This document shows positions 8,573 through 38,460 of a stretch of DNA of 38,460 bases, one piece after another. The translations under genes were made by a program, and so were the position numbers. Position 1 is the first letter of the stretch. The number at the start of each line of letters is the position of its first letter. The notes under the pieces are model-generated. The model was given only the letters and a program-made list of their open reading frames with translations. It made no database searches and was not told where the DNA came from. The stretch comes from a virus: positions 1 to 38,460 of the IMG/VR virus record IMGVR_UViG_3300010401_000056, one strand, 5' to 3'.

Positions 8573-11500
8573 ATGATGAAGAAGACAACGAGTCTTGAGA
8601 TTGATACAATTGTTACATCCACAACATCAAATTTACCAACCCAAACAATATTTTCCAATGATTTTTCACGAGAGATTTGGGAAACCACATATAAACATTT
8701 TACGGATAGTAATATAGATGAAACATTTCGACGTATTGCAAAAGCAATTGCATCTGTAGAAAAAGAAGAAGTACGTCAGAAATGGGAAGATAAATTTTAC
8801 GACCTTTTGTGTGATTTCAAAATAACAGCAGGTGGTAGAATTATTTCTAATGCGGGTGCTGGATATAAAGGCACCACAGCCATAAACTGTTTTGTTGGTA
8901 CGAAACCAAAATATGACCAAGATTCTCTAGAAGGTATTTTTGCGGTACTACTGGCCCAAGCTCAAACCCTAAAATCAGAAGGTGGATGGGGCATGAATTT
9001 TTCTTTCATACGTCCGCGTGGTTCTTTCATTCATGGTATTGGTGTCGAAACTCCGGGAGCAATAAAGTACATGGAGTTATTTGACAAATCTTCCGACATT
9101 ATTACTTCTGGGTCCGGGAAAAAGTCAAAAGTCAAAGAAGCGAAAGGAAAGATTCGTAAAGGGGCGATGATGTCTGTTTTGGACTGTTGGCATCCTGATA
9201 TTGAAGAATTTATTACAGCAAAACTCCAACCGGAAAGATTGCAAAAATTCAATATGTCCGTCAATTGTTCGAATGAATTCATGGATAAAATTCTTCGTAT
9301 TGAAGAATTGAAACATGCTCTAGAAGAATTTACGAAGACCGATTTCGTATTTGAAAATGGTGCGCCGATAATAAATGAAAAATTGGAAGCACTAAAAAAA
9401 GAAGATAGATGGGATTTGATTTTTCCGGATACGCAACATCCAAAGTACAAAGAAGAATGGGACGGTAACATTAGTCTTTGGAAAGAGAAAGGGTATTCTG
9501 TTGTAGTTCACAAGACAATTAAAGCTTCTTCTCTATGGGAACTTATTATGCGTTCAACATATAATCGTAATGACCCCGGAGTTCTTTTTCTGGATGTTGC
9601 CAACAAGACGCATTGCGCCTCTTACGCTAAAGACGCCTTCATTCAAGCAACAAACCCATGTCTTGCTGAAGGTACTTTTGTGAATACTCCAAATGGCTAT
9701 AGACAAATTGAAACTCTTAAAGTTGGAGAAGAAATATCAACATTGCATCCAAATGGATATGAGCCAATACATTCAATTGAAAAGCACGAAAAGACCCCAG
9801 TATTTAAGGTTATATTTTCAGATGGTGGAGAACAAATTGCAACTGCTGCTCACAGATATCATGTTCAGCGTAAAGGTTTTACATCTGGTAAATTTGTAGA
9901 GAAGTTACGACTCGATGAAATCAATATAGGGGACTTTATTCACGTTGAACCTACCAATTTTAAAAATACACAACTAGATGTCAAAGAATATGAGATGGGT
10001 TTGATGTTTGGAATTTTGTTAGGAGATGGTTCATGCGGGAAAAACTTCAAGATAGCAACATCCACGGCTGATTCAGAATACAATCAAGCAATAAAGGATT
10101 TGTTTGTTCGAAATGGATTTGAGTTTAATGCTGACGATAAAGCATCTGATGGAAGTAAATCTCTTTATTTGTGTTTTTCTTCCGATTCATCTAATCTTCT
10201 CAGAAATACGTTCAATATTCCTGATGGTTTTGAGTCTTCTACAAAAAAATTAATAGATAAGAGTCATAGCTATTCTTATTCTGTTGGTGTTATCAATGGA
10301 CTCCTCGCAACTGATGGAAACGTAAATTTGAAATCAAATCATCCTCAGATTAGATTTGATACTTGTTCAAAGGATTTGGCGATTGATATTAGACGAATGT
10401 TATTGTCGATTGGTGTTCATGGTAGAATAACTTCATCATGGTCAGAAGGTGGTACAATTGATGGTCGAGAAATTGGTCGAGAAATTGTTCGAAAATTTCC
10501 AAAGTATACGGTAGGTGTATCTGGATTTGATTTTAAAACTTTGGCTGCATTGTGTTATGAAAATATCAATTCAAGCAAGCAACAGAAGATTAAAACGGCA
10601 CTATATGCTGCCAAACTTTCTGGTAACTCTCGTAGTGCTCAGGTTCTATCAATAGAATCGTTTGGAGAAGCAACGGTTTATGATTTACACTGTACGGAAA
10701 GTGACACTTGGATAACTGATGGATATGTTCAACAGGGATGTGGCGAACAATGTCTTCCGTTTGGAAATGTATGTAATTTGGGGTCTTTGAACATGACCCA
10801 GTTTGTTGACGTAAAAAATGGTTGTTTCGATTTGGAAAAAATAAAAGCATACGTCCCAATTGCTGTTCGGTTTTTGGATAATGTGAACGAATACACCACT
10901 GCTCCACTTCCAGAATATGTCGAGGCAATTCGGAATAGACGACGTATAGGACTTGGTGTTATGGGTTGGGGTTCTGCTCTTTACATGTTAAAGGTTCGAT
11001 TTGCTTCTGATGAAGCGGAACGACTTAAAGATGAATTGGAGAGAATGATTACGCATACTGCGGTTGAAGCATCAATCGAACTTGCAATTGAAAAAGGCAT
11101 GTTCCGAGATTGTGGGCCGGAAAAACACGCTGAGGCGTATTTCTGGAAACAGATTGATTTACCAAAGACAACAATCAATAAAATTAAGAAGCACGGCATT
11201 CGCAATTCAGCGTTGTTTTCGATTCAGCCAACCGGTAATACGTCTATTCTTGCAAATATTGTGAGTGGCGGTCTAGAGCCTGTATTTCTTCATGAGTATA
11301 TTAGAACCTCTATTGTTCAGGATGTTCCGGAGCATATCCAATCAGAGTGTCCAAAATATTGGGAAGGCGAATTCAAGGAAACCGAATTGTTCAAGTTCGC
11401 AAAAGAAGGGTCAGATACAATTCTTCGTGGCGTAGATGCAAGCGGAGTTGTTTACAAGATTGATAAGAATAGAGGACTAACAAAAGAGACTTTGTGTGAA

Positions 11501-12328
11501 GATTATGGTGTGCGCTATCTTAAAGAGATTGGTCAGTGGAATCCAAAAGCGAATTGGGCTGTAACAACCGAACAATTGTCTGTTGAAGAGCACCTTAGAG
11601 ATTTGAAAGGTTTTGCGAAGTGGTTAGACTCCTCATGTAGTAAGACAGTTAATCTTCCCAATGACTATCCATTTGAAGCATTTGAAAACACTTACCTTGA
11701 TGCTTATAAGAGTGGAGTTTTGAAAGGAATTACGACGTATCGCGCAGGTACGATGACGAATGTTCTTTCTGCTAAAGAAGAAACACATGAGGAAGATGCA
11801 CAATCAATTCAAAAGACCAAAGCTCCGAAGCGCCCAAAAGAATTAGAAGCAGAACTCCATCACTTTACATTAAATAAACAACGATATTATGTAGTGGTTG
11901 GATTGATGAATACGGACCCTTATGAAGTATTTACTGGAATCAATCATAATGAAGATGGCGATATTTACATTCCAAAGACAGTAAAAGAAGGTTCAATTGT
12001 AAAACATAAGCGCGGAGAATATTCATTTAGGTCTAACGACCAAGATTATCTTCTTACAAATAGTCATGCTGATGATACAGCCGATGCTTTGACTCGTATT
12101 ATTAGTTGTGCTCTTCGTCATGGTTCTCCATTGGAATTTATAGTTGACCAGTTGAGTAAGACGAAAGGACCAATGACGACGTTTTCAAAGATTCTGTCTC
12201 GAACGGTAAAAAAATATATTAAAGATGGACGCGTTTCTGGAGACGATTGCCCGAACTGTTCAAAAAAGCTGACATTCTCTGAGGGTTGCAAACTCTGCAT
12301 CTCTTGTGGATATTCTGCTTGTAACTAA
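8573..12328 (+). CDS. nrdJ: Class II (B12-dependent) ribonucleotide reductase with in-frame intein
   Basis: The precursor has 1251 residues; without the intein at 363-722 it has 891. The enzyme reduces ribonucleotides to deoxyribonucleotides using adenosylcobalamin. Seen: ITAGGRIISNAGAG (84-97), a half-cystine candidate Cys106 in INCFVG, and the catalytic NPCGE motif split by the intein: Asn361-Pro362 before it, Cys723-Gly-Glu725 after it. In family members this Cys carries the thiyl radical. CNLGSLNM follows. The C-terminus has CPNC...CKLCISCGYSAC (Cys1226, 1229, 1239, 1242, 1245, 1250), the cysteine-rich tail typical of bacterial NrdJ. No NrdB-type subunit gene is near, which fits class II. 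The gene has its own transcript region after the 8438 terminator. Activity depends on splicing, which is doubtful (see intein). Confidence 0.9.
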   Translation: MMKKTTSLEIDTIVTSTTSNLPTQTIFSNDFSREIWETTYKHFTDSNIDETFRRIAKAIASVEKEEVRQKWEDKFYDLLCDFKITAGGRIISNAGAGYKGTTAINCFVGTKPKYDQDSLEGIFAVLLAQAQTLKSEGGWGMNFSFIRPRGSFIHGIGVETPGAIKYMELFDKSSDIITSGSGKKSKVKEAKGKIRKGAMMSVLDCWHPDIEEFITAKLQPERLQKFNMSVNCSNEFMDKILRIEELKHALEEFTKTDFVFENGAPIINEKLEALKKEDRWDLIFPDTQHPKYKEEWDGNISLWKEKGYSVVVHKTIKASSLWELIMRSTYNRNDPGVLFLDVANKTHCASYAKDAFIQATNPCLAEGTFVNTPNGYRQIETLKVGEEISTLHPNGYEPIHSIEKHEKTPVFKVIFSDGGEQIATAAHRYHVQRKGFTSGKFVEKLRLDEINIGDFIHVEPTNFKNTQLDVKEYEMGLMFGILLGDGSCGKNFKIATSTADSEYNQAIKDLFVRNGFEFNADDKASDGSKSLYLCFSSDSSNLLRNTFNIPDGFESSTKKLIDKSHSYSYSVGVINGLLATDGNVNLKSNHPQIRFDTCSKDLAIDIRRMLLSIGVHGRITSSWSEGGTIDGREIGREIVRKFPKYTVGVSGFDFKTLAALCYENINSSKQQKIKTALYAAKLSGNSRSAQVLSIESFGEATVYDLHCTESDTWITDGYVQQGCGEQCLPFGNVCNLGSLNMTQFVDVKNGCFDLEKIKAYVPIAVRFLDNVNEYTTAPLPEYVEAIRNRRRIGLGVMGWGSALYMLKVRFASDEAERLKDELERMITHTAVEASIELAIEKGMFRDCGPEKHAEAYFWKQIDLPKTTINKIKKHGIRNSALFSIQPTGNTSILANIVSGGLEPVFLHEYIRTSIVQDVPEHIQSECPKYWEGEFKETELFKFAKEGSDTILRGVDASGVVYKIDKNRGLTKETLCEDYGVRYLKEIGQWNPKANWAVTTEQLSVEEHLRDLKGFAKWLDSSCSKTVNLPNDYPFEAFENTYLDAYKSGVLKGITTYRAGTMTNVLSAKEETHEEDAQSIQKTKAPKRPKELEAELHHFTLNKQRYYVVVGLMNTDPYEVFTGINHNEDGDIYIPKTVKEGSIVKHKRGEYSFRSNDQDYLLTNSHADDTADALTRIISCALRHGSPLEFIVDQLSKTKGPMTTFSKILSRTVKKYIKDGRVSGDDCPNCSKKLTFSEGCKLCISCGYSACN
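9659..10738 (+). mobile_element. LAGLIDADG intein within the ribonucleotide reductase
   Basis: This 360-residue insert begins with Cys1 (CLAEGTFVNTPNGYRQIETL) and has a block B TAAH (62-65), with the pairing Thr and His expected for N-S acyl shift. Two homing-endonuclease motifs are present: FGILLGDGS (117-125) and VINGLLATDGNV (211-222). A block F-like VYDLHCTESDTW starts at 340. The end reads TDGYVQQG followed by the extein Cys. Aligned with the usual end (…VHN|C), the penultimate His is Gln, the final Asn is Gly, and the block F His appears as Thr. It is inserted between Pro and Cys of NPCGE. It may be a variant-splicing, cleavage-only or defective intein. Confidence 0.88.
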
Positions 12329-12692: not shown

Positions 12693-12764
12693 GGTGCATT
12701 AGCTCAAGCCAGAGCGTAGAGTCTCTAAAACTTTGAGATGCGAGTGCAAGTCTCGCATGCACCG
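12693..12764 (+). tRNA. Candidate tRNA with CUA anticodon (amber suppressor), atypical
   Basis: The acceptor stem GGTGCAT/ATGCACC is 7 bp and perfect. The D-stem is GCTC/GAGC, the anticodon stem AGAGT/ACTTT (one G-T), and the anticodon loop CTCTAAA, so positions 34-36 are CUA. The variable loop has 5 nt, and the T-stem GCGAG/CTCGC is perfect. Oddities: the D-loop AAGCCA lacks the usual GG; the T-loop is TGCAAGT, not TTCAAAT-like; there is one extra base between D and anticodon stems; and no CCA is encoded after the G discriminator. The D-loop GC and T-loop GC could pair as a substitute for the usual G18-G19 contacts. The call is moderate, since it could be a degenerate tRNA. Confidence 0.6.
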
Positions 12765-12805
12765 CAAAGAAGACGGTTTACAGGAAACGATAAATACACA
12801 GGTCC

Positions 12806-20400: not shown

Positions 20401-20905
20401 ACATCATTTTGATAACAGAAAAGACCTCAATAAACTGAATCGAAAGAAAGAAGTGAAGTATAGCGGTGATATGCTTCGAGAACTCTATGAAAATTTGAAG
20501 AATGACAATGTGTCAGATTTCTCTGAACCGGAAATGGACGCAATGTGGTTGGAATCTACTGGATTTAGATATCCATTTCGAAATCGCTTTATGAAGTGGC
20601 TTGACAATTTTGCCGCTAACGGAATCGTAGCTGCTACAAGTTGGTCCGCTTCAAATAAGATGGTGTATGGAGAAGTCCTTTCAAAAGAACAAAAATTCAC
20701 CGTTAATGATATGCCGTTTTACCGTTTCAAAATTTCTGATGGATGTGGCGACATTACAGTCAAAGTCTGGGATAATCAAATGAGACGTGCCAAGAGTATG
20801 AATATTACTGATGTTGGCGACCTGATATGCATTGACTTGGATTTCGATGAAACATACGGATACAACTTCTCAAATTCTGGCAAATTTATTAATCTATCGA
20901 GATGA
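17408..20905 (+). CDS. dnaE: DNA polymerase III alpha subunit, DnaE-type
   Basis: This replicative family C polymerase has 1165 residues, close to E. coli DnaE (1160). The N-terminal PHP domain has THVHS (His10, His12) and TEHGNM (Glu43, His44). LTGDTHYVDKGDGAFQDV closes the PHP part. The palm has GRGSVGSCLVAYLLG and PDIDMDFD (479-486), with catalytic Asp480 and Asp482 and the third Asp656 in LLKLDILGLKT. VAAINSLYRPAAL, YQEQ and GYLFNASHAFSYAYLAMQT match the fingers. The C-terminal has a helix-hairpin-helix-like ALVKVGAFKDF and an OB fold (VYGEVLSKEQKF to IDLDFDE). An acidic-then-lysine-rich insert at about 95-135 interrupts the PHP domain. A phage with its own DnaE need not use the host polymerase. 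Confidence 0.95.
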   Translation: MQEKPFCATHVHSFLSVLDGCGSIERYVEKAKSLNHPALAITEHGNMSSAYDLHDIAKKAGVKPILGCEFYLFREKDEFSDRLLEVYKERALARGEVLEEEDEGGEVFEDDDESTEEVEATSKKKTKKKDKSDIIKDFDRERYHQIVLVKNDAGWKNICKLNYYSFQKPDDSTYQEGKGLFYYKPMIKRPFLFEAKEGLIVTTSCLISEINRYIRYGLYDDAYALFERYKQQFGNDFYVEIQLNGVDDGDANQKLVNEKLIEFAKASDSKIILTGDTHYVDKGDGAFQDVMMAIAQGKKLDDPKLFTLGARNLHFQTREDYHQLNAEYGYNYSAEFIDECLDNTLEIADKVNFGFSTSKNYPKFNDSADDSKKQLAKLVTDALRDYILEKNMDATKAKRYKDRVKFEYDIIVKNGYSDYMLVVWDVVRFAKEKGITMGVGRGSVGSCLVAYLLGIAGLDPMEYDLFFERFINPEALSEPDIDMDFDSERRQEIIDYLKQKWGEENVVQVANFMTFNIKGSLRDLMRVFGRSYEDSNFLASDKVNMPEDLDADTIDDWFKKHETDTAIGRRILTWYESNQDIIECFKKMHGETRNLGLHAGGVLITPEPVYNYIPVNRSSKTLITGFPEAAGSVGKEGKISRASHKVLSSLGLLKLDILGLKTVTVIRKIVELVERRQQKDIRDEVYKLNLKNPELYREFSKGDNKLIFQFESSGISELIRKAKPKNFEHVAAINSLYRPAALNSGAAMAFADVCSGQKELEKTHPSVDEILKNTGGVIAYQEQLSRIINACTGIPFGKCEKMRKSIGDRSIGKYPELFEEFNLTFVDLCVKHVDMDRDVAEKLKQTILDNAGYLFNASHAFSYAYLAMQTLYLKMYYPEEFYSVCLTETNKDTELFSYISDAMKNGIQVEPPSILHSEMNFVPIKKGMIACGVSMVKGVKDKAYDEILQAQQMGYATLPDFLLHPWKKFNRGHCEALVKVGAFKDFEPNTKIALMVTEHHFDNRKDLNKLNRKKEVKYSGDMLRELYENLKNDNVSDFSEPEMDAMWLESTGFRYPFRNRFMKWLDNFAANGIVAATSWSASNKMVYGEVLSKEQKFTVNDMPFYRFKISDGCGDITVKVWDNQMRRAKSMNITDVGDLICIDLDFDETYGYNFSNSGKFINLSR

Positions 20906-21927
20906 ATACTTTCAAAGTAGCAAATGTAACTGTTGGTCAGGTTGGTGGTAGACACGTAAACCTTATGCCGTTGATGAATTCGAAAAAAGCGGCGGCGCTT
21001 CTTCTTGATGAAGATGAATCTAAACTAGAGTCGTGGTCTCAGTATGGCTTAGACGTTGTTCCATGTCACAGTAATCCTTTTTTTAAGGCTTTAGAAGACG
21101 CTTATTCTCTGCATCTTCCGGTCATATTAAGTCCTGATATGATTTGGCTTTGTATTGCTCAAGGATTTGCGAATCATATCAATGTAAATGCAAAAAAGTT
21201 TAGACATCTTTTTGTTGAACACGAAGGGCAAAAAGAACTCGTGATTTATCGGAATTGGACGAAAGGAAATCCAATGAATGAGTGGCCGGGATGTTTCGAT
21301 GAATTTTCTCTTAAAATTAAAGAGTTTGTCGGAGAGGACCGCGTAAAATTGTCAGTACAAAAATTTACAACAACAACTTCTGTTGATTTGGCGGCATTTC
21401 ATGTTGTTCACATGGATGCTATGAAAGCGTACTTCAAATATAAAGTCCTTTTCTTTTGCGGTATTCCTGAGATAACATTACTTGGAACCACAGATGATTG
21501 GAATAGGATACTTCAATGTATTGAAAACTATAGAGAGTTTAAACTTGATTGGTGGGTCGATGAATTAAAACCCGTTCTTGAACAATTTGTAAAGGCATCT
21601 TCTGGAGATGTTGATGTTGATTTCTGGAGCAAGATTCTTACAAAATCAATGATTGGTAGTGGCTCTCAAACGGAACTCAATGGATGGTCAAGTAAACTTG
21701 TACCATATACAACTACTGAAGGAGGACTTCTTCAAAGAAGGAATTTTGAATATGATAATATTGATAGTGACGAAATTCCTAAAGGACTTTGTCGGGTTCC
21801 ATTTGTGCTTGATGATAATGGTGCGACGTACGATATGGAGTTTTTAGGAGGATTTACATCTTATTCTCAAGACCCAATCACAATGGCTGTAAAACCTAAT
21901 ATTGGTTGGATAGTTAAGGACAAATAA
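20902..21927 (+). CDS. DUF4419-like protein
   Basis: The protein has 341 residues, and its start overlaps the polymerase stop by ATGA. The block HSNPFFKALEDAYSLHLPVI (56-75), then LSPDMIWLCIAQGFANHINV and FRHLFVEHEGQKELVI, followed by FTTTTSVDLAAFHVV and CGIPEITLLGTTDDWNRI, is the pattern I associate with Pfam DUF4419. That family is known mainly from fungi and bacteria and has no settled function. Length and block order fit a full domain. No catalytic motif can be named. Coupling to dnaE suggests early expression. The family name is from memory; the match is strong at several blocks. Confidence 0.75.
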   Translation: MNTFKVANVTVGQVGGRHVNLMPLMNSKKAAALLLDEDESKLESWSQYGLDVVPCHSNPFFKALEDAYSLHLPVILSPDMIWLCIAQGFANHINVNAKKFRHLFVEHEGQKELVIYRNWTKGNPMNEWPGCFDEFSLKIKEFVGEDRVKLSVQKFTTTTSVDLAAFHVVHMDAMKAYFKYKVLFFCGIPEITLLGTTDDWNRILQCIENYREFKLDWWVDELKPVLEQFVKASSGDVDVDFWSKILTKSMIGSGSQTELNGWSSKLVPYTTTEGGLLQRRNFEYDNIDSDEIPKGLCRVPFVLDDNGATYDMEFLGGFTSYSQDPITMAVKPNIGWIVKDK

Positions 21928-29033: not shown

Positions 29034-32000
29034 ATGTTAGTAGCTCATTTTGGAGACGTTCACATTAGGTCGTATGTTCGACTGGAAGAATATCGAGAGC
29101 AGTTTAACAAGTTAACTACACAACTTCGTAAAAATGGTGTGGACCTAATTGTGTGTTGTGGAGATTGGTTCGATAATAAAATAAATCTTTCACCTGAGTC
29201 GGTTCGATTTTCTTGTGAAGCAATTGAAATGCTTGCGAATGTCGCGCCTCTTTATATGATTGCTGGAAATCACGACGCCAATTTGAGCAATCTTTCACGT
29301 ATGGACTCGCTTCAATTGCTTGGACATCTTATGCGAAGCAATTCAAAGTTTCATTATTTGCGTGACAGCGGCTTGTTTTCTGTCCCTGATACAAATATTG
29401 AATTTGGCGTGTTTTCTCAATTTGATAAACCGGAAGAATGGCCGGTCCATATTGAGAACAAAGACTCAAACAAGTGTTATATTGCTCTCCATCATGCACC
29501 ACTTCAGGGAGCAAAATTTGGCACAGGGATAAAAATCGAGGATGGGACATCAGCTAACATCTTTTCTGAATATGATATGGTGTGGTTAGCAGATATTCAT
29601 CAACGGCAATTTTTGAATGAAGAAAAAACTATCGCCTATCCCGGTTCATTGATTCAGCAGAATTTTGGAGAAGAGGTGTCAAAGGGATATCTTATTTGGG
29701 ACACCGATACGAAAAAATCTCGGTATGTTGAACTTCCAAACGATTATAGCTTTGTCTCTTTGAGAGGTGATAATCCAATCAATATTCGAGAGCAAGACAC
29801 TCAAAATCTTACTTCAAAAACTCGTCTAAAAATTGTGTTGAAAGATAAGATAACACGATTGGAAGAAATAGAACTTCGGAATTTCTTTAGTAGCAAGTAT
29901 AAATTGGAAGAAGCTCCTATTGTTGTTAGTGGTCAAAATGATTTTGAAAATTATCGAGAGACCAATAAAGAGTTGTGGGCAAATTATCACAATACAGGAT
30001 TTCAAACCGAACTCTTGGAAAATTGGCTTAAAGGACAAACCGAACATCCGGAATATTCTGGCAAAGATTTCATTGAAAATTGCGTCGAGCTTCATAAACG
30101 ATGCATGGCACAAATCGAAATTCCTGACTACAAGAACAACCGATGGAAACTTGTATCATTGAAATTTTCAGGTTTTGGTCCATACGGTGATGAGAATTAT
30201 GTAAACTTCAATGACGTAAAAGGTATTGCTGGACTCTTTGCGCCGAATCGACAGGGTAAAACGACTCTCATCGAGGTTCTTACTCATGCTGTCACAGGGG
30301 AAACTATCAAGTCTATCAATCTGGATAAGTTCATCAATCTGAGACGCACTAAGGCTTCGTCTGAGACGCTCTTGGAGCACAATGGTACATTATACCGTAT
30401 TTTACGTCAGGTGAGCCGTAAGAAGACGGGAGGAGGCTCTACGAGCAAAATAATCATCACTTTCCAAGACAAAGACGGAGTTTGGCAACCATATAACGAA
30501 TTGGATGGCCCATCGACCAATAAATCGTGCCAAACGCTCTTTGGAGATAGAGATGATTTCTTATTGACATCTATTAGTTCTCAGGAGAATTATGCTGGTA
30601 TTCTCGACAAGAAAGACAGCGAGCGTTTAGCTGCCTTGTATAGATTTACTAATTTGGATTGGTTTGAAAATCTGCGTAAAAAGTCTTCTGAGGAAATCAA
30701 GGACATCGAAAAGGAAATCATGCTGCTTCAAAAGAGTGCAAACACACAAAGCTTTGCTATCTTAGAACAGCGTCGGGCAAATACAACCAGAGAAGTTGAA
30801 GATTTCGAGAGACAACTGAGCGATAGAAAGCGCGAACTGGAACAATTGATAGAGACGCTTATTGCTCTTAAAACTCAGGTAAAAGAGACAACAAGTAGTT
30901 CGAATGCGGAAAAAATTCGAAATGATTTAGAGCATGCAAAAAAATCTCTTCGTTTGGCTGTATCTGGTTTGCAAGAATCAACCAATTCAAAGAAGGCAAA
31001 GATATCGGAAATGGAAAAGATGAAATCCAAAGTGCAACAAGTCTTAAAAGGTGTTGCATACAAGGAAATCATTGCAATGAAGGACCATGTCAAGAAAATG
31101 GAGGATGAGAGAGGACAAGCTCAAACCTCTGTCAAGATTTTATCTGAGAAGAAGAATCAGATTGACATGAAATTGAACATTTTGAAAATTCAGCCATGGG
31201 TAAATGAAGACCCAAATTGTCGTCAGTGCATGTTTTTGAAAGATGCGTGGCAAGCAAAAGACGATGCAGAAAGAATTATACAGGAGTTATCGGGATTTAC
31301 AGATAACTTGCATGTCCTCGTTGAAGAGTTGAATAAGGCTGGATTTACCTATCGAGAAATTCTTACGGTGAACGAAACAGTTCAAACGTATATGAATTTG
31401 AAGAGCGGTGTGGAAAAATCTGATAGTGACATTCTTCGATTTGAAAGTGAGAGAACACTGGCGGAAAAAGCTGTTGAGTCGCTTTCTAAAGAATTGGAAG
31501 AACACGCTGACACATTAAGGGAAATGGTTGAGCAGCAAGAGATTTCGACTAAAGTGCAAACGTCGAATGTTCGAAAACAAAGACTTGAAAATGAAATTCA
31601 AAGTATAGAAAAAAGTGTATGGAATGGTAAAACAGAGTTGGCTAGAATTGACGGCAGTATTGAAAATATGAATGAAAGACTTCGACAGGTTCTTGCATTA
31701 GAATCTAAAACGAAGTTCTATGTTGCATATCAAAAGGCAGTATCCAAAAATGGGGTACCTTTGGATATTATTCGACAAATACTGCCAAAAATAAACTTGG
31801 AGGTCAATCAAATATTGTCCATGACTCAAAACTGGAAGATTTCCATTCATGTTGACAATGACAAGCTAAATATCAATATTATTGATATTGTTAACGAAGA
31901 AGAAATTGGAGAGCGTCCCATTGAATGTTGTTCCGGAGCCGAACGAACGATTACAGCAATTGCCTTGCGCGTTGCATTAACACAAATATCGTTTTTGCCT

Positions 32001-32213
32001 CGACCAACATTTATGATAATTGATGAAGCGTTTTCTGCACTGGATGATGAAAATTTGTCGAGGATTGAGTTGTTCTTGAATGAGATAAAAGCTTATTTTG
32101 ACTTCATACTGCTAATATCACATATTCCTCAAATGCAATCGCAAGCGGACTGCTTATTAGTCATCAATAAGACCGATGATGACTATTCTCAGTTGAGATT
32201 CGGCTCCGATTGA
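29034..32213 (+). CDS. Fused SbcD-SbcC (Mre11-Rad50 / gp47-gp46) in one protein
   Basis: The protein has 1059 residues in one open frame. N-terminal phosphoesterase: Asp8-x-His10 (FGDVH), Asp44 (CGDWFD), Asn79-His80-Asp81 (AGNHD), His153-His154, and ADIH with Asp187 and His189. ATPase: LKFSGFGPYG, Walker A APNRQGKT (403-410, first Gly is Ala), a long coiled coil, zinc hook CRQC (Cys729, Cys732), a second coiled coil, ABC signature CCSGAERT (near 967) and Walker B FMIIDEAFSALDD (Asp997, Glu998). Total length is about that of the two T4 proteins together. The likely role is DNA end resection in replication and repair. The frame is continuous from 29034, so no frameshift is needed. Confidence 0.9.
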   Translation: MLVAHFGDVHIRSYVRLEEYREQFNKLTTQLRKNGVDLIVCCGDWFDNKINLSPESVRFSCEAIEMLANVAPLYMIAGNHDANLSNLSRMDSLQLLGHLMRSNSKFHYLRDSGLFSVPDTNIEFGVFSQFDKPEEWPVHIENKDSNKCYIALHHAPLQGAKFGTGIKIEDGTSANIFSEYDMVWLADIHQRQFLNEEKTIAYPGSLIQQNFGEEVSKGYLIWDTDTKKSRYVELPNDYSFVSLRGDNPINIREQDTQNLTSKTRLKIVLKDKITRLEEIELRNFFSSKYKLEEAPIVVSGQNDFENYRETNKELWANYHNTGFQTELLENWLKGQTEHPEYSGKDFIENCVELHKRCMAQIEIPDYKNNRWKLVSLKFSGFGPYGDENYVNFNDVKGIAGLFAPNRQGKTTLIEVLTHAVTGETIKSINLDKFINLRRTKASSETLLEHNGTLYRILRQVSRKKTGGGSTSKIIITFQDKDGVWQPYNELDGPSTNKSCQTLFGDRDDFLLTSISSQENYAGILDKKDSERLAALYRFTNLDWFENLRKKSSEEIKDIEKEIMLLQKSANTQSFAILEQRRANTTREVEDFERQLSDRKRELEQLIETLIALKTQVKETTSSSNAEKIRNDLEHAKKSLRLAVSGLQESTNSKKAKISEMEKMKSKVQQVLKGVAYKEIIAMKDHVKKMEDERGQAQTSVKILSEKKNQIDMKLNILKIQPWVNEDPNCRQCMFLKDAWQAKDDAERIIQELSGFTDNLHVLVEELNKAGFTYREILTVNETVQTYMNLKSGVEKSDSDILRFESERTLAEKAVESLSKELEEHADTLREMVEQQEISTKVQTSNVRKQRLENEIQSIEKSVWNGKTELARIDGSIENMNERLRQVLALESKTKFYVAYQKAVSKNGVPLDIIRQILPKINLEVNQILSMTQNWKISIHVDNDKLNINIIDIVNEEEIGERPIECCSGAERTITAIALRVALTQISFLPRPTFMIIDEAFSALDDENLSRIELFLNEIKAYFDFILLISHIPQMQSQADCLLVINKTDDDYSQLRFGSD

Positions 32214-35028: not shown

Positions 35029-35646
35029 ATGAATACTCAACAGTTGATTTTTACGAAAGAAGACGCAGAACGTATTGTTAATGAGCAGATTGTAGAACAC
35101 TTTTATATGATGTATAAAGGCTCCTCTGTGAATGATGCTGCCGGATATGCTCAACGTCAAAACAAATTGCAACAGGACTATGTCATGGTGTTGAAGGCTT
35201 TTTTTGTCCCTCCACACGTTCTTGCTGGTATGCCAACTGATACTGCTACTGCTAATGCGCAAAAAGACATGATGATGCTGCATGAAGGAGTTTCTTCAGA
35301 TGCTTGGGTGCAAAAAACAAATATAGAGAGAGTTCATGTTGAAACAATATCCCAAATTGCTAAATTTAACGGTTTGAAACTGGAAGATTTAGAACAAGCC
35401 ATTCCTCTTTATGGTTTTGGAAGACGATTGAGCATTCTTGAGAAATATTTTCAAGTGAGAAAAGAATTAATTCTTAGGTCGCTTCACGCTTTATGTCTTG
35501 CAAACAATGGAGACACCAAAAAATACAGAAAATATGAAGAAGAAACAAATATCCCAATCGGATTCTCAAAATCCAAAGGACGAGAACGACCAGTCTCTCA
35601 AAAAGGATTCTTCGGAATTACTGAGGAAGAGACTTTTAGGGGTTAA
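35029..35646 (+). CDS. Hypothetical protein, 205 aa
   Basis: The ATG is 1 base after the previous stop. The protein is mostly helical (EDAERIVNEQIVEHFYMMYK, LVYGFGRRLSILEKYF-like) with a basic C-terminus (KSKGRERPVSQKGFFGITEE). The last 113-140 bases overlap the next gene in another frame, and both frames read as plausible protein there. The function is unknown. Assembly or structural is a guess from neighbours. Confidence 0.65.
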   Translation: MNTQQLIFTKEDAERIVNEQIVEHFYMMYKGSSVNDAAGYAQRQNKLQQDYVMVLKAFFVPPHVLAGMPTDTATANAQKDMMMLHEGVSSDAWVQKTNIERVHVETISQIAKFNGLKLEDLEQAIPLYGFGRRLSILEKYFQVRKELILRSLHALCLANNGDTKKYRKYEEETNIPIGFSKSKGRERPVSQKGFFGITEEETFRG

Positions 35647-36169
35647 GAAAAAAATAAATAGCCGCCCACGTACTGCTAGTAGCGATGGAGCAAAACTTCT
35701 TAAGCGTGCTAACTTTTCTACTCGATATCTTACGTCTCTTCGTAAAAGAGGAGAGCATAAGTTGCAATCCAAAGGTTTGAAATCCACAGGTGAAGGTAAA
35801 AATGGCCGACTTATGAAGCCAATGACTAAACCTGAATTGGAAGTTGCCATGATTCTTGCGGAAGCTGGAATAAAATACGTTCGAGAGTGGAAAGTTCTTG
35901 GGAAATATTATGATTTTAAAATAAAGAATACTAATATATTGCTCGAAATTGATGGCACATATTTTCATCATAAGGATGGAAAAATATCAATGCGTTCTGT
36001 CAAGCAAAAAACAGAAGACCTGTATAAAGATTGTCTTGCTGTTATGCAAGGTTATCAACTTATTCGAGTTTGGGAAGATGAGATAGATAAGACGAAATTG
36101 CTCAATAAAATTGAACTGTTAAAAACAGCCTTTGCAGACAATCATAGTATAGTTCGTCCGTATTTATGA
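35534..36169 (+). CDS. Vsr/DUF559-like endonuclease-fold protein
   Basis: ATG at 35534 gives 211 residues; ATG 35507 is also possible, and both overlap the previous gene. The first 80 residues are basic (KKKINSRPRTASSDGAKLLK) and may bind nucleic acid. The domain from about 93 reads MTKPELEVAMILAEAGIKYV, VLGKYYDFKIKNTNILLEID, GTYFHHKDGKISMRSVKQKT, QGYQLIRVWEDEIDK. The Glu, Tyr-Asp-Phe, Glu-Ile-Asp-Gly pattern is that of very-short-patch-repair and DUF559 nucleases of the PD-(D/E)XK fold. The acids are Glu in KPELE, Asp in YYDF, and Glu-x-Asp. The substrate is unknown. Placement among virion genes is odd. Confidence 0.7.
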   Translation: MKKKQISQSDSQNPKDENDQSLKKDSSELLRKRLLGVKKKINSRPRTASSDGAKLLKRANFSTRYLTSLRKRGEHKLQSKGLKSTGEGKNGRLMKPMTKPELEVAMILAEAGIKYVREWKVLGKYYDFKIKNTNILLEIDGTYFHHKDGKISMRSVKQKTEDLYKDCLAVMQGYQLIRVWEDEIDKTKLLNKIELLKTAFADNHSIVRPYL

Positions 36170-36251
36170 AGAATGGTTTGCCACAAATCATTCAATTATG
36201 CCGCTGAACACATACAATGATTGGAAAAAAAGGAGAGCGAAATCCATTTGA
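36166..36251 (+). other. Two tiny overlapping reading frames ahead of the fibre gene
   Basis: ATG 36166 overlaps the TGA of the previous gene and gives 13 residues to 36207. ATG 36198 gives MPLNTYNDWKKRRAKSI to 36251. It overlaps the main start at 36217 in another frame and passes an A7 tract (36225-36231). These may be chance, a translation-coupling leader, or a frameshifted true N-terminus of the fibre. Confidence 0.35.
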
Positions 36252-38460
36252 CTCAAAAGGAAATCCCGTTCGACACTACGATGGTAAAAATCATTCGCAG
36301 TTGAATGGTGATGTAGCCGTACAACGAATAGAAGTACAAGGTGATGGTTTAGCAGTACATGAAGCAGGAGCAGTATTTCATACTACGCAACCGGGTTCCG
36401 ATAGAACATTTTCTCTTACAGGTTCAGCTTCTGGTTTTGCAATACGTGATAGTTTTAACAGAGATGATGAGCCGTCATTTTTAGGTTTTCCGGATGTTGG
36501 TTCACAATGGAAAGAAAAATTTGGTGCGTTCGGTGTCAGCGCAAATGAAGCGTATGTGTCCTCTTCCGTTTTGACCAATTTCAATCTTGCTTTGGTAAAT
36601 GGTTATTTGGCAAATGGACACTTGCAAGTTACTATAAACAAAAGAGAAGATGGAAATGAACAACCGAAAAACGGATTGTCATTTCGTGCAAATTCTTCGG
36701 GTTCTCAATATCTTGGTTTTTTCCCTTTTGAAGATGAATTTGGAATTCGTCATTATGCTCTTGTTAATGTTGTAGGTGGAGTAGCCGTTCCAATGTTTAT
36801 ATCAACAGCATTACCTTCTACCGGTGATGTTTTGCGAGTTGATTTTACTGGGGATAGTATTTCTGGCTATGTTAATGACGTTCGGATTGTTGATTTTCAT
36901 AGTAGCCTTTATTCTGGAAATACATATCATGGCGTCTTTTCTTATCCTCTTACAGGAAATATTATTGACACGGTATTCATTCCTGAAATTGGAAACCAAA
37001 CATTCGACGATTTTTCTTTTACGTTTGATGCTTCCGGAACAGGGCTTGTTGAAGTAATTCGAACGTTCGAACGCGCTATAACTCTTGATACAATAGTTCG
37101 GACACAATCTCAAAACAATGTTGAGATTCCTCCACACATTAGTAGAATTTCCGTAAATGATACGGATGGCGTTCATATCATTGACCCAAAAATTGAACTC
37201 CGTCACGGTAGTTTAAGTGCCTATGAAGATAGTCTGTTCTACAATTCAAAAATGTGGGATAGTCAAGGTGAAAACACGTATGGGCAAATTGACCAATATG
37301 GCATTAGGCTATATAAAAATGGTCAACTTACAATGAATGCGGATTTTAAAACTGGAGACTTTTTTCCGAATGGAGGAGGTGCCGGTGGAAATGGTAATAG
37401 TGGTTGGTCTGGCATCAGCGGTAACTTTCAATCCGGCTGGAGCGGCATATCTGGCAAAGGAAATTCCGGTTGGTCCGGTATCAGTGGATTTTCCTCAACA
37501 GGAAGTCCAACAAAAATCACACTTGTAAAAGAAGAGTATTCCAGCGGCACATATCCTTCGCAATATACTGCTGGAATTTGGAACTTACGCAATCTTAATA
37601 CTATTGATGATTCTGATAATTTAGGTATTACACTTTCTTCTGGAGTTGTTACAATTCCACAAGGAAATTATTGGATACGTGCTCGTGCGTCAGTATTTGG
37701 AGCAAGTAGTCATTATATTCGATTGCGGAACGTCTCTTCAAACACTTCTATTTATGGAACTTCAGAATATTCTGATGTTGCTCAATTTTCTGTAGAGTCA
37801 GACCTTGTCAATAGATTAAGCGTAACGTCCGTTACGGAAAATTATGTACTTGAACAATATATTACAACCAATATTACAAATACTCCGGGAGTTCCAGTGG
37901 GTCTTACTGGAATCAATGAGACGTATGCGGTTTTGGAAATATATAAATTTAGTCGTGGTGGAACCGATGGTAAATCTGGCTGGTCCGGTATCTCCGGCAA
38001 CAGCGGCTGGAGTGGTATCTCGGGTAAGGCAGATTCCGGTTGGAGCGGTATCAGCGGAGATATAGGTCCAATAGGTCCATCCGGTATCTCCGGTAACTTT
38101 CAGTCTGGCTGGAGCGGTATCTCCGGTAACTTTCAGTCTGGCTGGTCCGGTATCTCCGGCAGCAGCGGCTGGAGTGGCATTTCGGGTAAGGCAGATTCCG
38201 GTTGGTCTGGCATTAGTGGAGATATAGGTCCAATAGGTCCATCCGGTATCTCCGGTAACTTTCAGTCTGGATGGAGCGGTATCTCCGGTAACTTCCAGTC
38301 TGGCTGGTCCGGTATCTCTGGTAACAGCGGCTGGAGTGGCATTTCGGGTAAAGCAGATTCCGGTTGGTCCGGCATCAGTGGAACTTTCCAGTCTGGCTGG
38401 AGCGGTATCAGCGGCAACTTCCAAAGCGGTTGGTCCGGTGTTAGTGGCGCATCCGGTATC
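36217..38460 (+). CDS. Long fibre or adhesin with SGWSGISG repeats, 3' end outside window
   Basis: It is open from ATG 36217 to the window end, 748 codons with no stop, so the gene is partial. Residues 1-100 are basic, then globular. About 120-280 (LSFRANSSGSQYLGFFPF, LRVDFTGDSISGYVNDVRIV, NQTFDDFSFTF) resembles a concanavalin/LamG-like jelly roll. A first repeat block lies near 395-425, a globular domain at about 430-580, and then repeats from 587 to the edge. SGWSGISG occurs 15 times plus one SGWSGVSG, often spaced by NFQ, KAD or NS. Gly-X-Y runs such as GDIGPIGPSGISG are collagen-like. The role is probably host or surface binding. The start may be at 36198 after a frameshift. Confidence 0.85.
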   Translation, partial: MIGKKGERNPFDSKGNPVRHYDGKNHSQLNGDVAVQRIEVQGDGLAVHEAGAVFHTTQPGSDRTFSLTGSASGFAIRDSFNRDDEPSFLGFPDVGSQWKEKFGAFGVSANEAYVSSSVLTNFNLALVNGYLANGHLQVTINKREDGNEQPKNGLSFRANSSGSQYLGFFPFEDEFGIRHYALVNVVGGVAVPMFISTALPSTGDVLRVDFTGDSISGYVNDVRIVDFHSSLYSGNTYHGVFSYPLTGNIIDTVFIPEIGNQTFDDFSFTFDASGTGLVEVIRTFERAITLDTIVRTQSQNNVEIPPHISRISVNDTDGVHIIDPKIELRHGSLSAYEDSLFYNSKMWDSQGENTYGQIDQYGIRLYKNGQLTMNADFKTGDFFPNGGGAGGNGNSGWSGISGNFQSGWSGISGKGNSGWSGISGFSSTGSPTKITLVKEEYSSGTYPSQYTAGIWNLRNLNTIDDSDNLGITLSSGVVTIPQGNYWIRARASVFGASSHYIRLRNVSSNTSIYGTSEYSDVAQFSVESDLVNRLSVTSVTENYVLEQYITTNITNTPGVPVGLTGINETYAVLEIYKFSRGGTDGKSGWSGISGNSGWSGISGKADSGWSGISGDIGPIGPSGISGNFQSGWSGISGNFQSGWSGISGSSGWSGISGKADSGWSGISGDIGPIGPSGISGNFQSGWSGISGNFQSGWSGISGNSGWSGISGKADSGWSGISGTFQSGWSGISGNFQSGWSGVSGASGI
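37396..38460 (+). repeat. Glycine-serine-tryptophan repeat blocks with a 162-base tandem unit
   Basis: Block 1 lies at 37396-37490 and block 2 at 37972-38460. In block 2 a unit starting GATATAGGTCCAATAGGTCC at 38059 recurs at 38221, a period of 162 bases (54 residues: GDIGPIGPS, then five SGWS/GISG modules). The DNA uses TCC, GGC and ATC often, so it looks richer in G and C than the neighbouring genes, and copies differ mainly at synonymous positions. Recent or ongoing homogenisation by recombination is an inference. Confidence 0.85.

Follow-up and report, generated by a model that had tools for sequence, protein, structure and literature searches.

Glycine-ended inteins at the catalytic cysteine of class II ribonucleotide reductases: a conserved clade that may splice without a cyclising terminal residue

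The class II ribonucleotide reductase (NrdJ) of a phage contig, a virus record of 38,460 bases analysed here in full and referred to as the window, is interrupted by an intein that ends in Gly. Sequence comparison places this intein in a conserved clade of mobile elements that is specific to the reductase's catalytic-Cys site. What appears new in the sequences of this clade is the combination of the fold, first nucleophiles and site preference of known inteins with the absence of the residue that serves step 3 of splicing. Described inteins end in Asn, or rarely in Gln, Asp or Glu, all of them able to cyclise, and the reviewed intein classes all release the intein through cyclisation of this last residue (PMC4031507). 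No report of a Gly-ended intein was found in a search of open-access papers, a literature of incomplete coverage. The lineage probably splices nonetheless, and a carboxylate at position 13 of block F (F:13) or an N–S shift at the Gly–Cys junction would take over the release.

The NrdJ open reading frame (8573-12328) encodes 1251 aa of an adenosylcobalamin (B12)-dependent reductase, whose exteins match TIGR02504 with 416 bits and also PF02867. Within the NPCGE motif, the intein separates the Pro from the catalytic Cys, with junctions reading FIQATNP/CLAEGTFV on the N-terminal side and ESDTWITDGYVQQG/CGEQCLPFG on the C-terminal side. Four intein-free relatives (L002, L003, L008 and L009), with C-exteins 56-64% identical to that of the window, read through an uninterrupted NPCGEQ (ATNPCGEQ, ASNPCGEQ or similar), which fixes both junctions and identifies the intein as an in-frame insert at a conserved site, absent from relatives. 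Its C-terminal sequence is DTWITDGYVQQG, giving GYVQQG/CGEQ at the junction. The first-pass annotation had placed GYVQQG directly before the extein Cys, with Gly in place of the terminal Asn, and this is borne out by the window translation and by 23 homologues; Cys1, the TxxH of block B and the two LAGLIDADG motifs that it listed are all present as well (Table 1). Its reading of the block F His as Thr does not hold, as F:13, located by counting back from the C-terminal end as in HNFxANGxxVHN, is Asp349, and Thr350 is not at that position. Pfam finds LAGLIDADG_3 in the window intein, with Intein_splicing and Hint_2 below threshold. The HINT fold expected of an intein is predicted by AF2, with a mean pLDDT of 88 for the window intein and likewise 88 for the mini-intein L054, the flanks being of low confidence; among solved structures, Foldseek ranks gp41-1 and Ssp DnaB nearest, and TliVMA and PI-SceI, two inteins with an endonuclease, in the case of the large form. 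A 12-base unit repeated three times (10462-10497, GREI repeats) forms a short insert in the intein relative to its relatives.

Table 1. Features of the interrupted NrdJ gene, in window positions
Feature	Position	Strand	Basis
N-extein of NrdJ, ending TNP	8573..9658	+	ORF and translation; TIGR02504, PF02867
LAGLIDADG intein, 360 aa, Cys1 to Gly360	9659..10738	+	boundaries from intein-free relatives; AF2 fold match
Cys1, first splicing nucleophile	9659..9661	+	same residue in 24/24 Gly-ended inteins
Block B TAAH (Thr62...His65; T62-H65)	9842..9853	+	TxxH in 24/24 Gly-ended inteins
LAGLIDADG motif 1, LMFGILLGDG	10001..10030	+	sequence, alignment
LAGLIDADG motif 2, GVINGLLATDGN	10286..10321	+	sequence; PF14528
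Asp342, block F position 4 (F:4)	10682..10684	+	invariant among Gly-ended inteins
Asp349 at F:13, replacing the usual His; proposed helper in C-terminal cleavage	10703..10705	+	24/24 Gly-ended vs 0/43 others
Trp351	10709..10711	+	invariant in Gly- and Asp-ended clades
Gly360, last intein residue, replacing Asn	10736..10738	+	Gly in 24 complete homologues including the window
C-extein of NrdJ, first residue Cys+1, the reductase catalytic Cys (CGEQ)	10739..12328	+	ORF, TIGR02504, extein conservation

A single-sequence search with the window intein found no viral relatives. The family was opened by a scan in which viral contigs were matched to the pattern of a CGEQ site lacking a preceding Pro. 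It returned 25 places, most of them HN-ended inteins and three others with QQG or SRG before the Cys. An alignment of the QQG- and SRG-ended inteins then led to further relatives in viral contigs and bacterial genomes, and extra members were added by genome searches in two phyla and by a motif scan. After removal of duplicates, 67 distinct inteins were obtained at the NP/CGE site, of which 24 end in Gly, 10 in Asp, 23 in Asn and 10 in Gln. The Gly-ended set, in which the window intein is counted and all members are complete (L056 and L119, likewise Gly-ended but on truncated contigs, stand outside it), comprises 11 phage and 13 bacterial sequences, and the taxa given in the record titles include Chloroflexi, candidate phyla (among them Daviesbacteria and Levyibacteriota), Nitrospinota and Rokubacteria. 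The search for homologues with QQG-type ends suggested in the first-pass annotation was thus productive, with 23 further complete inteins ending [QS][QR]G/CGE at the same site; the other sequences of the family are 28-47% identical to the window intein. A read-level error in the last codons is ruled out by these 23 independent homologues, which end alike, and they also reject a wrong boundary with a canonical end elsewhere. Three complete Gly-ended members (L054, L057 and L124) are mini-inteins of 132-155 aa without an endonuclease, with 132 aa in L054 and 149 aa in L124; the partial L056 is a mini-intein as well.

Viral contigs scanned with a motif for the Gly end, in which Cys+1 and the Trp were demanded, gave 16 matches, 13 of them in long frames (some from the same or near-identical contigs) and all 13 at the reductase CGE site; the remaining 3 are short chance frames. 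Within that scan, no Gly end was found in a non-reductase host protein. Named relatives in phage and plasmid records, SPbeta BnrdE (GN/C) and the CB7 helicase (HN/C), are Asn-ended and were set aside.

Every one of the 24 Gly-ended inteins has Cys1, TxxH, the F:4 Asp, the F:13 Asp, a Trp two residues further on, the terminal Gly and Cys+1; TNP and CGE in the flanking exteins do not vary either, and the residue before the Gly is Arg in 20/24. Asp at F:13 distinguishes the Gly-ended inteins (24/24) from the Asn-, Gln- or Asp-ended inteins at the site (0/43), in which this position is mostly His and never Asp in the Asn- and Gln-ended forms, and Leu or Ile in the Asp-ended set, which has the Trp as well. 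With the final 8 residues excluded from the tree, the Gly-ended inteins form one branch (SH-aLRT 96), the Asp-ended inteins form its sister branch (97) and the pair is supported at 100; without the last 28 residues, the Gly-ended set still occupies one side of a branch, with a weak support of only 67. The Gly end, as read from these trees, probably had a single origin and was conserved thereafter, so that its pairing with the F:13 Asp represents one event followed by conservation and not repeated covariation. Gln-ended inteins at the same reductase site (L004, L007, L018, L035, L093, L094, L099, L101 and L111) have several origins on the tree (4 changes), and, since they are also common there, the site seems permissive for atypical intein ends.

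The Gly-ended clade shares with class 1 inteins a nucleophile at position 1 (Cys or Ser in class 1, here Cys1), block B TxxH and a Cys, Ser or Thr at +1 (here Cys+1), all invariant in 24/24, together with the F:4 Asp, the HINT fold and the LAGLIDADG endonuclease. However, it departs from class 1 at the C-terminal end, where the cyclising residue (Asn; rarely Gln, Asp or Glu) is Gly in 24/24, the penultimate His is Gln or Arg and the F:13 His is Asp. Class 2 inteins lack a nucleophile at position 1, whereas Cys1 is present in every member, and class 3 inteins use an F:4 Cys as first nucleophile, whereas F:4 is Asp in 24/24. The Asp-ended clade (L048-L053, L085 and L087-L089) is found in the same host protein and at the same site, is sister in the tree and shares the W..xGY motif of blocks F/G, but it carries Leu or Ile at F:13 and Asp before Cys+1, where the Gly-ended clade has Asp and Gly, respectively. 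An Asp-ended reductase intein, of the Carboxydothermus Chy RIR1 type, was reportedly described by Amitai et al. in 2004. Gln-ended inteins, such as those of CIV RNR and Pab/Pho PolII, are known; they resemble the Gly-ended clade in having an atypical C-terminal residue, in some cases at the same reductase site. Nevertheless, Gln can cyclise and Gly cannot, and the Gln-ended inteins lie elsewhere in the tree, none of them with the F:13 Asp. Finally, B-type bacterial intein-like (BIL) domains, defined here partly after PMC7765530 as HINT domains of variable bacterial proteins with no conserved +1 nucleophile, are also without the usual C-terminal motif; the Gly-ended inteins, in contrast, reside at the catalytic Cys of NrdJ, an essential enzyme, keep an invariant Cys+1 and mostly contain LAGLIDADG motifs.

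The Gly-ended inteins are probably functional. The exteins of the family keep NPCGE and other conserved reductase residues. In the bacterial genomes G001, G003, G004, G005 and G007, no class I/II reductase other than the gene with the Gly-ended intein was found, these genomes being bins in which a second copy may be missed, and none of the 17 bacterial genomes tested (metagenome bins) yielded a class III reductase; a scan for NrdJ showed a single gene each in G137 and G424. The dN/dS ratio is 0.05-0.10 among the closest bacterial pairs, with dS close to saturation. In these pairs the inteins are more alike than the C-exteins (e.g., 84% vs 64%), and therefore the comparison suggests that Gly-ended inteins have moved horizontally. 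Homing alone does not maintain the Gly end, because mini-inteins without an endonuclease keep it. Moreover, judging from the position in the active site, an insert of 130-380 residues or one leftover Gly beside the catalytic Cys should abolish activity, and precise removal of the intein is thus the simplest reading.

Our preferred proposal, held with moderate confidence from the sequence patterns, is that the Gly-ended intein splices precisely, with steps 1, 2 and 4 resembling those of class 1 and step 3 consisting of a non-cyclising cleavage between Gly and Cys, probably with the help of the F:13 Asp. In step 1, an N–S shift would take place at Pro–Cys1 and, in step 2, the N-extein would be transferred onto Cys+1, both in the class 1 manner. 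The amide between Gly360 and Cys+1 would then be cleaved without cyclisation in step 3, assisted by Asp349, which could act as a general base for water or could attack the Gly carbonyl to form a short-lived anhydride. An S–N shift in step 4 would restore NP-CGEQ, and the intein would depart with an ordinary Gly C-terminus. Activation of the C-terminal Asn for step 3 is attributed to the F:13 His (PMC4031507); in PhoPol-II, a distance of 3.4 A separates the block F His from the terminal carbonyl (PMC8229266). As the F:13 Asp is invariant and the terminal residue is unable to cyclise, a carboxylate that aids Gly–Cys cleavage is suggested for the Gly-ended clade.

The main rival chemistry, which we regard as possible but rather unlikely, is a double N–S shift, in which the Gly–Cys+1 bond would also be converted into a thioester, liberating the amine of Cys+1 for a direct attack on the N-extein thioester; the intein thioester would then be hydrolysed, or a circular intein would form through its closure on Cys1. 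The invariance of the Gly and the constant use of Cys at +1 in the complete family agree with this chemistry, and in general peptide chemistry a Gly–Cys junction readily undergoes the N–S shift; however, the double shift leaves the invariant F:13 Asp and Trp unexplained and is not known from other inteins. Slightly less likely still is that no ligation takes place, so that cleavage at one or both ends yields a reductase of two non-covalently joined chains. The NrdA of Aeromonas phage Aeh1 is reported to be functional in pieces (PMC3653736), and B-type BIL domains, which have no C-terminal motif, mainly cleave (PMC7765530), but a cut at this site would separate the Pro from the catalytic Cys, and the flanking TNP and CGE are invariant. 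Moreover, the full class 1 nucleophile set is kept, Cys+1 included, and some of the genes (L015, L041, L056 and L057) contain elsewhere another intein whose end is the canonical HN.

The first-pass annotation had left the choice between a new splicing variant and a precursor that does not splice, and of the two the former is favoured. Decay into a non-splicing intein and a dead reductase could be suspected from the replacement of three of the usual residues at the C-terminal end, but all 24 sequences, at 28-47% identity to the window intein, share these replacements, dN/dS is low and the frames are open throughout. Because the Gly end is found in 24 inteins, mini-inteins among them, and in several genomes without another detected reductase, simple decay is unlikely, and we give it very little weight; as far as the sequences can tell, it is largely refuted by the family. 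The suggestion that Gln359 is the cyclising terminal residue, leaving one Gly in the product (NP-G-CGEQ), can be virtually dismissed, for although Gln-ended inteins exist, others at the same reductase site included (L004-L007, L093, L094, L099, L101 and L111), the residue before the Gly is Arg, which is unable to cyclise in this manner, in 20/24, the +1 residue would be Gly, which is no nucleophile, and the leftover residue would disturb the NP-CGE spacing, which is invariant in the exteins.

If non-cyclising release by the Gly-ended inteins is true, it would constitute a fourth route to the completion of protein splicing, with an intein that leaves unmodified or possibly circular. Step 3 would then be replaceable, and the clade showing this is one that phages and several bacterial phyla carry at the active-site Cys of an essential enzyme. 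The mini-inteins of 132-155 aa would bring new chemistry to protein ligation tools, and the release of Asp-ended inteins, an old question, becomes testable through the sister clade.

Several other features were observed on the contig. Just downstream of the reductase gene, a tRNA gene with a CUA anticodon (12693-12765) is recognised as tRNA-Pyl by ARAGORN and matches the Rfam tRNA model with 49 bits; since TAG terminates only 2 of 39 genes (at 1233 and 15036), it may be an amber suppressor tRNA. A role for it was considered and set aside, the reductase frame being without TAG. A DUF4419 protein (20902-21927, E 1e-73), directly after the DNA polymerase III alpha gene, has no PHROG match. A single open frame of 1059 aa (29034-32213) fuses SbcD-like and SbcC-like parts. 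The ORF at 35498-36169 weakly matches DUF559/Vsr nucleases; its frame differs from that of the preceding ORF (35029-35646), whose end it overlaps, and it is possibly a homing-type nuclease or a frameshift. Lastly, a collagen-like tail protein with GWSGISG repeats (36217-38460) runs off the contig end, and its gene contains a 162-base tandem repeat (37975-38382).
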